Source: Desulfosoma sp. (GTDB lineage: Bacteria; Desulfobacterota; Syntrophobacteria; Syntrophobacterales; DSM-9756). Taken from it: 64,000 nucleotides of DNA. The notes under the pieces were generated by a model. That model saw only the letters and a list, made by a program, of their open reading frames with translations. It searched no databases and was not told the origin of the DNA. The position numbers were made by a program, and so were the translations under genes. Where the stretch lies: NCBI GenBank assembly GCA_037481875.1, contig JBBFKY010000004.1:124001-188000 (forward strand), read 5' to 3'. Positions within the stretch are counted from its first letter, which is position 1, and each line of letters starts with the position of its first letter. This document shows positions 27,118 to 30,372 of this stretch, one piece after another.

Positions 27118-27265
27118 AAATCCGCCAAGGTATAAGCGCTTTCCAGGTTCCTCTGGATTCGTACGGTGAACACCAAAGGTGCGGCCGCTCCTGCATTTTC
27201 CGCCATAAGGAAGCCTCGTGGCGGCGGCCCTACCTTTACTCCGTGACACACGGGACACATGGTTT

Positions 27266-27513
27266 GTGGGGGCGGAGCGCGTGTCCGTCCAGCAGCAACC
27301 CATTTGTGTGGTCATGCCTGAATGTCCGTCTACGCCTTGGAACTCGTAGGGGCGGACCGACGTGTTCGTCCCTCGAAAAGGCTGTCCGAGAACGTGCCAT
27401 AACATGAAGTAGGGGCGAGACGGCGCCTCGCCCCTACAAGCCTGAAACTGTGTTTTTTTGAAAGCATGGCCTCCGGCCCGCTTATTGTGCGAGCGGGACG
27501 CCAGTACCAGCGC
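27266..27513. repeat. Cluster of four palindromic extragenic repeats
   Basis: In the 514-base gap between the convergent M16 and YcaO genes lie GGCGGA-type copies at 27266-27290 and 27346-27373 and a 29-base GTAGGGGC to GCCCCTAC copy with a GGC centre at 27409-27437, whose arms have one mismatch. At 27471-27513 there is a relative of the two-hairpin element seen at 22801 (shared GGCCCGCT, TTGTGC and GCGGGACG blocks). No gene is supported in the gap. Confidence 0.75.
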
Positions 27514-27631
27514 TTTCGAGGATAAGGTCCTTCTCGAACAAGCCACGTGCTTTCCTGTCTGAATAGTTCCACCATCCGAGATTCCCTGAATTTTTTGCGA
27601 CGTCTCATGACGATGCTGCAGGATACACTCG

Positions 27632-29389
27632 TCATGGCGAAGGGGAAAACGTGGCGGAAAGCCCAGCTCGTAGTCGATGCACATTCTCCCGTGCAAAATC
27701 CAAGGATGGATCCAATTCCAGAGCCATCTCATAGAGTCGCAAAGCTTCCTGAAAGTGGCCTAGCTCCCTCAAGTTGGATCCGATATTGGCATAGTCGATG
27801 GCGGATCCGGGATCGATTTCAATGGCCTTTTCAAAGGCTTCGATGGCTTCATGGTGTTTCTTGAGCCGGTAAAAGCAAAAACCCCTGAGATTGTAGATTT
27901 CCTTAAGGCTCGGGTTCCATTTCTCCGCTTCCTTTAAAGCTTCCAGGGCCGCCTCGTAGCGTTCCAGACTCTTGTGACAGGAAGCGATGTGGACATAGAT
28001 GCTGGCGATTTCCTGCGGGTCTGGCTTTTGGGAGAGCGAACGTTCAAAAAGAGCCAGGGCATCTTCAAAGTGTTCCAGACGTTCCAGGGCGTGAGCGGTG
28101 AAAAAGGTAAGATCGAAACGTGGCCCGAAAAGATCCGTTAGACGTTTAAGTTGCTTGAGCGCTTCATCGGCATCCAAGCTTCGAAGGACTGTTCGAGCCA
28201 TGTGTTGAGGGAAATCCGTGTGACGAGTGTGATCCAAAAAATGTGCTCCGGGAACAATGACGTAAACACTTGGAACCTGCAAAGCTTCATGGGTCACATT
28301 GACCACCAAGACAGGCCAGTCCAAACGGGCAAGACTTTCGACAGCCCGTTGAATTTCCACGTGAAGGTTGTCATGGCTTAGATCCGGCAAAGCCTGAAGG
28401 GGGACGGTGCCCTTGGATTCCATGAGATATCGTGCTTCTTGAAGGGTCTCGTATTTGGGCAGCGTGGGCCTGTAGGTGGTGCGATTTTCAAAATCACCGG
28501 CCAGCTGTGCCACTTCGGTCAGGGCCCGACACAAGGATTTGGCGGGATGCGACGTGGTGCCGGCCGTGAAGACGATTTCACTGCGTTGTGGAAAGGTTTC
28601 GGGATCATAGGCCAGCACGCCCACCGTGGGAATGCCCGTGTCCAAGGAAAAGTCGCGAACGAACAGACGAATCCCGCACCGTTCAAACTTTTCCAGCAGC
28701 TCGGTGGCCGCCTCATCGTGCACGCTTTTAAGATCAATGGCCGGAGTGATAAGACGGTCATGGGAAATCACGGAACCCACGTGTCGCTCCACCACTTCGC
28801 ATAAACCCTGCAACACGGCTTCTTCCAGCGTGTTTCCCGCCGCAGGTCCATTGTATTCGTTGATGAGATAAAACCAGTCGATGGGAATCCATTGATCCTG
28901 ATCATCCGTAAGGTTTCGTCCCGGCACCCATCGCAGAGGGCATGTATCCAGAAAGATTTTGGCACGATCCAAAGGGGTTTTCGTGTCGTGGACGGACTTG
29001 AGAAGCACTTCGAGTGATGTGGCCGGGCCGTGCAATTCTTTCAGGCAGGCCGTGAGGAACTCTTGCCCGTGAATGAAGGAAAAAAAACTGAATCTTTCTA
29101 TGAGTTCCATGAGGGCGCTGGCTTCAGCCTGGGCTGGAGTGGCACCTTTACCCATCTGCTTCTTGGTCCCTGTCAAAGCGGATGCATCGGGCCCGCACAG
29201 ACTGATGTAGACGGGGATGTTGAGACGCCCAGTATCGATACGCATTGTTTTGGCAAGAATACGCATGTTGAGGTTTTCCAACCGTCGGCGAACCCATTGC
29301 ACTGTTTCTTGGGGGGCTCGAGCTTTTTCCTGATCATGGCGAAAGATCTTGAAGCAGTTTTGCAGTTTGATACGGGAATCAAGATGCAT
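27632..29389 (-). CDS. YcaO-domain protein fused to a TPR domain
   Basis: A protein of about 585 residues. Residues about 40-400 form a YcaO domain, with GKGATPAQAEASALMELIER and later LQGLCEVVERH, the glutamate-rich ATP and magnesium site of the family. YcaO proteins activate peptide amide bonds with ATP to make azolines, thioamides or amidines. From about residue 420 there are four to five TPR units (ALERLEHFEDALALFERSL, then NLRGFCFYRLKKHHEAIEAF), likely for protein binding. No TfuA, precursor peptide or maturase gene is nearby. The ATG at 29389 has GGAG seven bases upstream and is preferred over an ATG at 29401 or a TTG at 29410. It lies 71 bases after rnd in the same direction. Confidence 0.85.
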   Translation of the reverse strand: MHLDSRIKLQNCFKIFRHDQEKARAPQETVQWVRRRLENLNMRILAKTMRIDTGRLNIPVYISLCGPDASALTGTKKQMGKGATPAQAEASALMELIERFSFFSFIHGQEFLTACLKELHGPATSLEVLLKSVHDTKTPLDRAKIFLDTCPLRWVPGRNLTDDQDQWIPIDWFYLINEYNGPAAGNTLEEAVLQGLCEVVERHVGSVISHDRLITPAIDLKSVHDEAATELLEKFERCGIRLFVRDFSLDTGIPTVGVLAYDPETFPQRSEIVFTAGTTSHPAKSLCRALTEVAQLAGDFENRTTYRPTLPKYETLQEARYLMESKGTVPLQALPDLSHDNLHVEIQRAVESLARLDWPVLVVNVTHEALQVPSVYVIVPGAHFLDHTRHTDFPQHMARTVLRSLDADEALKQLKRLTDLFGPRFDLTFFTAHALERLEHFEDALALFERSLSQKPDPQEIASIYVHIASCHKSLERYEAALEALKEAEKWNPSLKEIYNLRGFCFYRLKKHHEAIEAFEKAIEIDPGSAIDYANIGSNLRELGHFQEALRLYEMALELDPSLDFARENVHRLRAGLSATFSPSP

Positions 29390-29460
29390 GGCAAACTCCA
29401 TGAGTCTCAAATGTTTTTTTGGAATCGGCCAACCGGCGTTGAAAAACGAGCCTCAGAATA

Positions 29461-30372
29461 TCAAGCGCTGCCTTCACGAGGACATTCTTTGGGGGAAGTA
29501 CTGTCGTGGGTTTGCAGAGCTTCATGAATCACGTCCAAGAGCTGGCGAGCTTGAAGGCCGGTTTTAAAGGACTGAGGCAACCCTTTGATCGTGCGAAGTT
29601 CTTCCATGGTTTTGGGCATGCGTTGCGCCAACCGAATCAGAGCTTCGTTGGGGAGCACACGAAATGGAGCTCGGTCCAACCTTCTGGCGGTGGCATCTCG
29701 AAAGGCATACACTTCACGAAGGACGGCTCTGGCTCTACGAGAAAGGCTTCGAGAGCCCTGCAGTCGCTCATAGCCGTTGGAGGGAAAGCGTTCTCGGGGA
29801 GGAGCCTGGTCACAGACTTTGGCGAACGCTTCTTGGGCTTGAGCCCATAAATTACGGCGAACCAAAGCGTCATGGAGTTTGTCCCGTAAGGGAATGAGGT
29901 AGTGGGTATCCAATCGAGCGTAATGGAGTTGGGAATCCTTCAAGGGGCGTATACCCCAGTCGCAACGTTGCCATTTTTTGTCAAGCTGCACCTGAAAATG
30001 AGCTTCAAGAACATGGGAAAGGCCCAAGCGTTTTTCCCCTAAGAGCTTACAAGCTATGGCGGTGTCAAAAACATGGCGAAAGGTGAACTGAAAATCCCTT
30101 TTAAGGGCCCCGATATCGTTGGACGCCGCATGAAAAATCTTTTCCACGGCCGGATCGGCAAAAAGATTTGACAAGCAATCCGGGCGGGTGATGCTTAGAA
30201 TGTCGATGATGTAATCGTCCTGATCCGTGGAAATCTGGATTAAGCACACCCTTTCGTGATAGGCATGATAGCCGTTGGATTCTGTATCCACAGCGATACG
30301 AGGGCACGCAAGGAGTTTATGGATCGTTTCATGGAGCTTCGGGTCCGATTCAATGAGAATATAAGGACGCAT
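29461..30372 (-). CDS. rnd: Ribonuclease D
   Basis: RNase D is a 3'-5' exonuclease that trims tRNA precursors. The DEDD residues are visible in AVDTESNGYH, ASNDIG and YARLDTHYLI, and an HRDC domain follows (from about residue 205, with NEALIRLAQRMP). The chosen ATG at 30372 gives 303 residues and has AGGA a short distance upstream. A longer open frame overlaps the divergent Smr gene and is not needed. It is followed by the YcaO-TPR gene. Confidence 0.88.
   Translation of the reverse strand: MRPYILIESDPKLHETIHKLLACPRIAVDTESNGYHAYHERVCLIQISTDQDDYIIDILSITRPDCLSNLFADPAVEKIFHAASNDIGALKRDFQFTFRHVFDTAIACKLLGEKRLGLSHVLEAHFQVQLDKKWQRCDWGIRPLKDSQLHYARLDTHYLIPLRDKLHDALVRRNLWAQAQEAFAKVCDQAPPRERFPSNGYERLQGSRSLSRRARAVLREVYAFRDATARRLDRAPFRVLPNEALIRLAQRMPKTMEELRTIKGLPQSFKTGLQARQLLDVIHEALQTHDSTSPKECPREGSA

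Follow-up and report, generated by a model that had tools for sequence, protein, structure and literature searches.

The YcaO-TPR protein encoded in the 64,000-nt stretch of Desulfosoma DNA analysed here (the window) is very likely linked in function to the Dsr system, and it probably thioamidates DsrC at Gly89, the site and chemistry being predicted from the evidence below. DsrC is a small sulfur carrier that acts in the final step of dissimilatory sulfate reduction, and has long been studied and crystallised. Dissimilatory sulfate reduction is itself one of the main processes in sulfur cycling worldwide.

The features of the locus are listed in Table 1. The longest reading frame (27632-29410, minus strand, 592 aa) begins at a TTG, but the start shared by the family is probably the ATG at 29389, giving a protein of about 585 aa. 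The PF02624 match is full-length, covering residues 86-389 with 243 bits against a gathering score of 25.7. TPR repeats match residues ~435-570 by Pfam, and the helices of the tail extend over residues 409-582 in the AF2 model (pLDDT 93.4 for the protein). The complete YcaO domain and TPR tail described in an earlier note on this DNA were thus recovered by Pfam, and the glutamate-rich ATP site it pointed out is intact. The N, E, Q, E, E and R of the second ATP/Mg motif are located in GNTLEEAVLQGLCEVVER, and a third element, RALTEVAQ, contributes an E and a Q. Across 32 diverse orthologues, down to 36% identity, every residue of the site is invariant, the glutamates included. This is the sole YcaO protein of the 3.4-Mb Desulfosoma genome.

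Table 1. Coordinates of the ycaO-TPR locus in the window, and of related proteins at other loci (L numbers).
Feature	Position	Strand	Remarks
ycaO-TPR gene	27632-29389	-	Start picked by orthologue alignment
ycaO-TPR alternative starts	ATG 29401, TTG 29410	-	
YcaO catalytic domain PF02624	28244-29155	-	Pfam E 5.8e-72
ATP/Mg site motif 1, SALMELIER	29093-29119	-	S, E, E, R invariant
ATP/Mg site motif 2, NTLEEAVLQGLCEVVER	28784-28834	-	N, E, Q, E, E, R invariant
C-terminal TPR tail, proposed substrate-docking part	27701-28108	-	Pfam and AF2 model
rnd (RNase D: DNA_pol_A_exo1 + HRDC)	29461-30372	-	Pfam; upstream of ycaO-TPR
Second TPR-tail protein	L115:4253-5998, L116:5950-7740, L117:5536-7284, L118:5956-7701, L121:4198-5916, L114:6186-7970, L119:1823-3766		
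Shorter YcaO paralogue	L099-L106, L108		e.g., L108:6740-8197

Full-length YcaO-TPR proteins (E below 1e-100) occur in 71 of the 198 genomes of the phylum that were surveyed. The dsrA gene, counted as present above its curated cut-off, is found in 69 of these 71, compared with 100 of the 198 overall (Fisher 4.5e-26, a value that treats lineages as independent and so overstates the certainty), and the only two genomes carrying YcaO-TPR without it (G078 and G113) have completeness values of 62% and 76%. Within 300 bp of YcaO-TPR, on the same strand, lies dsrC (PF04358) in 13 of the 71 genomes, drawn from seven families (naive binomial 9e-27, overstated for the same reason); the pattern itself is plain in both cases. 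One group has dsrC upstream of YcaO-TPR and others have it downstream, showing that the arrangement arose more than once. Outside Syntrophobacteria, the neighbours of YcaO-TPR are sulfur genes, of which dsrC is the commonest, and recurring sulfur-handling neighbours include genes for a LarE-like protein, a NIL-domain ferredoxin, Thi4 and MnmA. DsrD was considered as a better predictor than dsrA and set aside, since the f9 and f53 genomes have YcaO-TPR and no DsrD. The 80 records kept from a contig scan carry names that are Desulfobacterota-type or undefined proteobacterial.

The LarE-like gene lies within 500 bp of YcaO-TPR in 17 loci, its identity as LarE being judged by eye, as Pfam gives the PP-loop superfamily only. 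In many Desulfobacterales it immediately precedes YcaO-TPR (L057:1272-2090 plus 16 further loci). The encoded PP-loop sulfur transferase may supply sulfur to YcaO-TPR.

The presence of YcaO-TPR is matched by a single residue of DsrC. In D. vulgaris numbering this is residue 89, which in the GPGK motif is the second Gly and lies four positions ahead of Cys93. In YcaO-TPR genomes DsrC reads LFPSGPGKGACKMAGL.KPTGCV, and D. vulgaris DsrC carries Gly89; a GPA motif is seen in the DsrC of most other dsr genomes and in the archaeal DsrC structures 1SAU and 1JI8. Across 326 genomes, residue 89 is Gly in all 111 scorable genomes with YcaO-TPR and Ala in none, and the 45 genomes without it have Gly in 8 cases and Ala in 37. 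These counts include G298 as YcaO-TPR present, its gene being cut by a contig end. In five YcaO-TPR genomes no DsrC matches the Gly or the Ala pattern, and the four that were re-examined have only divergent copies or no DsrC.

Family f40 is split, with two genomes (G074, G107) having YcaO-TPR and Gly, and two (G038, G136) being losses of the enzyme, with Ala. The DsrC of the latter pair has Ala89, yet the remainder of the sequence is Gly-type. In a DsrC tree built without column 89, the residue changes twice, each time along with YcaO-TPR; a tree-corrected sign test has two informative pairs, both concordant, which is too few for power. Position 89 is the sole DsrC column, of 105, that separates the two groups and also reverts in f40. 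DsrA and DsrB were rejected as targets, as none of their 820 positions (439 in DsrA and 381 in DsrB; 27 genomes) follows YcaO-TPR.

Seven genomes from three lineages have Gly89 without YcaO-TPR and with no YcaO detected, and these may be recent losses of YcaO-TPR. A further genome with Gly89 and no YcaO-TPR, G186, has a divergent YcaO of 550 aa with an extra N-terminal region (L291:13420-15072, equivalent to G186:C4:69419-71071), encoded about 8 kb from dsrAB.

By profile and by structure, YcaO-TPR is closest to the YcaO proteins that thioamidate a glycine of McrA. Its best NCBIfam model is TIGR03266 (McrA-glycine thioamidation), at 138.5 bits compared with a cut-off of 365, and the closest solved structures are the YcaO proteins of M. 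jannaschii (Z 38) and M. kandleri (Z 35), ahead of EcYcaO (29.5). The fold shared with the McrA thioglycine enzymes extends over ~335-340 aligned residues with an rmsd of ~3. In M. jannaschii and M. kandleri the McrA thioglycine is made without TfuA (PMC5589413). These enzymes (MJ1094 and its M. kandleri counterpart) act on a glycine and are tied to an enzyme central to anaerobic energy metabolism, as is proposed for YcaO-TPR; they differ in lacking a TPR tail and in having McrA as their target.

The cell produces sulfide, the glycine follows the presence of the enzyme and the catalytic domain is of the thioglycine-forming type; together these point to a thioglycine at DsrC Gly89. In the proposed reaction, the TPR tail would bind folded DsrC and the YcaO domain, with ATP and Mg, would phosphorylate the amide oxygen in the backbone at Gly89, which sulfide would then replace to give thioglycine. 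The C-terminal redox arm of DsrC, with Gly89 at its base, moves sulfur from DsrAB to DsrMKJOP, and the thioglycine would stiffen or tune the hinge of this arm. A natural read-through chain, DsrC-linker-YcaO-TPR, was modelled by AF2 with a pLDDT of ~90 for each part and a pTM of 0.76 for the whole. The earlier note had proposed that a core protein is modified and that the TPR part helps to choose it, which is probably correct; it did not name DsrC, the likely target.

A published mass is consistent with this chemistry. The D. vulgaris DsrC peptide LKEVYELFPSGPGK was reported with 'Trimethylation+Oxidation' in three pull-downs, written as LK*EVYELFPSGPGK (PMC3125180). The peptide ends at Gly89-Lys90 and has no Met, Cys or Trp, making an addition of 16 Da odd. 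A thioamide adds 15.977 Da, which would fit, but trimethylation plus a thioamide (+58.024) is nearly equal to carbamidomethylation plus one 13C (+58.025), so the match is ambiguous and only suggestive. No paper joining YcaO with DsrC, or DsrC with a thioamide or thioglycine, was found among the open-access papers searched.

DsrC could instead be the sulfur donor, with YcaO-TPR taking sulfur from a DsrC persulfide or trisulfide and thioamidating some other protein that takes part in sulfate respiration. Members of the DsrC family carry sulfur, and other sulfur-transfer proteins are found among the neighbours, but this would leave unexplained why a glycine outside both redox cysteines tracks the enzyme. 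Nor does any DsrA or DsrB column do so, and EcYcaO is active in vitro with Na2S, ATP and Mg (PMC13063428); a donor role is accordingly considered unlikely. Less likely again is a modification of DsrC near residue 89 that is not a thioamide but an amidine, azoline or cyclisation. Several YcaO product types exist (PMC13063428) and the tracking of residue 89 locates the site only, but an azoline or amidine means a loss of 17-18 Da and engages Cys93 or Lys90, while the sole published peptide mass points to +16 and the nearest relatives are thioglycine makers.

Thioamidation of DsrC Gly89, the preferred reading, has a partial parallel in EcYcaO, which thioamidates Met82 of uL16. Like YcaO-TPR it bears a C-terminal TPR domain, and it thioamidates its target, a folded core protein, in vitro with Na2S, ATP and Mg (PMC13063428). 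The earlier note had allowed for a ribosomal protein as target, and YcaO-TPR might by analogy be the counterpart of EcYcaO acting on uL16, but this is very improbable. The sequences are far apart, YcaO-TPR scoring 55.6 bits with NF040716 (the E. coli uL16-type model) against a cut-off of 700. EcYcaO, from Pseudomonadota, is very acidic (pI 4.4), matching the basic uL16 (PMC13063428), and YcaO-TPR has a pI of 5.86 (mean of 61 members, 5.5). The placement of the TPR also appears to differ (Foldseek rmsd 9-13 over the whole chain), and ribosomes are universal whereas YcaO-TPR is confined to dsrA genomes.

DVU2210 of D. vulgaris Hildenborough is a YcaO-like TPR protein that has been deleted and studied genetically (PMC7774982), so the remark in the earlier note that such chemistry is little explored in Desulfobacterota was too strong. 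Its ATP motif SAGNTEEESILQGSCELVER (PMC7774982) is near-identical to that of YcaO-TPR, the two domains are the same, and D. vulgaris belongs to the phylum; from domain make-up and ATP motif, DVU2210 is very likely the YcaO-TPR orthologue. It differs in being known by genetics alone (molybdate sensitivity, fermentation yield). Deletion of DVU2210 together with sat gives molybdate resistance, and the single deletion reaches a higher fermentation density without slowing sulfate respiration (PMC7774982), which rules out an essential role for the modification. DVU2210, dsrC, sat and apr were all among the genes hit during sulfate-free syntrophic evolution, and in one coculture line kept without sulfate, mutations in DVU2210 and in sat/apr arose in separate sub-communities (PMC8319347). 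These genetics fit a costly, non-essential accessory of sulfate respiration. It has been proposed for DVU2210 that the protein acts directly on oxyanions, such as molybdate, and thereby wastes ATP (PMC7774982), and the molybdate resistance that follows its loss in a sat-minus background is in keeping with this. Such an activity would be a side activity, accounting for neither the dsrC link nor residue 89, and the authors themselves give the native target as unknown (PMC7774982); as the explanation of YcaO-TPR its probability is very slight.

In the window, ycaO follows rnd by 71 bases in the same direction, as the earlier note had stated, given the ATG at 29389 and the rnd stop at 29461. Among 160 YcaO-TPR loci, 28 have rnd immediately upstream in the same orientation (gap 2-1019 bp), and those with names include Desulfacinum, Desulforhabdus, Desulfoferrobacter and Syntrophobacteraceae. 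Conservation of the pair therefore holds in these 28 Syntrophobacteria-type loci and fails elsewhere: being confined to Syntrophobacteria, the pairing is real in the class and does not define function, and rnd probably does not belong to the YcaO-TPR system. The link to RNA that the earlier note hinted at from this neighbour is not supported: the partners found phylum-wide are dsrC and sulfur-transfer genes, and the presence of YcaO-TPR follows dsrA. A functional partnership with RNase D in RNA processing, suggested by those 28 loci, is scarcely credible, as rnd is adjacent nowhere else among the 160 and reflects local gene order only.

Other genes near it in the window are unremarkable and encode an M16 peptidase, an Smr protein, an EamA transporter, rubrerythrin, adenine deaminase, a bifunctional nuclease and a MiaB-type radical SAM protein. 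About 500 non-coding bases (27118-27631) with repeated GTAGGGGCG-like stretches separate the M16 peptidase gene from ycaO, the two being convergent. A scan of the window genes found no precursor peptide, TfuA or dehydrogenase next to ycaO-TPR, in agreement with the earlier note, and no profile, motif or neighbour supports a peptide-product cluster. YcaO-TPR shares its fold and ATP site with the azoline-forming enzymes (TruD, LynD, SagD), but it lacks a precursor, a partner and a PxPxP end, the C-termini of 32 aligned orthologues showing no conserved PxPxP or other conservation, and it falls below the cut-off of their family (TIGR03604, the SagD TOMM/azoline cyclodehydratase model; 110 bits vs 219). 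With a distribution that follows dsrA, a role as RiPP (peptide natural product) maturase can be dismissed almost entirely despite the common fold and ATP site.

A second type of protein, ~580-600 aa in length, ends in a TPR tail that shares 34-50% identity with the tail of YcaO-TPR (110-139 bits, compared with ~50 bits or less for unrelated TPR proteins), joined to an N-terminal half that is not YcaO and has no Pfam match. Several genomes that have dsrA but lack YcaO-TPR encode it. At several of its loci a gene for a B12-binding radical SAM protein comes before it, and in one genome (G020, L114) its own gene lies just ahead of dsrAB. The tail is common to two unrelated catalytic systems, both following Dsr, and this suggests a role in docking a protein of the Dsr system.

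Taken across Desulfobacterota sulfate reducers, the balance tips slightly towards a general scheme in which DsrC would carry a thioglycine made by YcaO-TPR, and lineages without the enzyme would use Ala89, several of them having the pair of B12-radical-SAM and TPR-tail proteins. If so, the Dsr machinery would be tailored post-translationally much like methyl-coenzyme M reductase, adding a previously undescribed layer to sulfate respiration, and confirmation would show that a core protein in a metabolism of global importance bears an unreported modification. Two core proteins, McrA and uL16, are established carriers of backbone thioamides installed by YcaO enzymes (PMC5589413, PMC13063428), and DsrC would be the third. 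DVU2210 would gain a function, its puzzling molybdate and syntrophy phenotypes would become easier to approach, and the inferences possible from recombinant DsrC, which is unmodified, would change.

Some YcaO-TPR-type genomes also carry a shorter YcaO paralogue (~480-515 aa, 30-39% identical, with a higher pI). It adjoins dsrC in G100 and G120, and is near Era in L099 and L105. Genomes with the shorter paralogue only (G038, G136) have DsrC Ala89. In family f20 (L051, L054, L056, L106), a second, divergent DsrC (ELFPTTSERAICKIAGLPKPTGCI) is encoded close to the YcaO genes, and is adjoined by a B12-binding radical SAM gene of ~790 aa.
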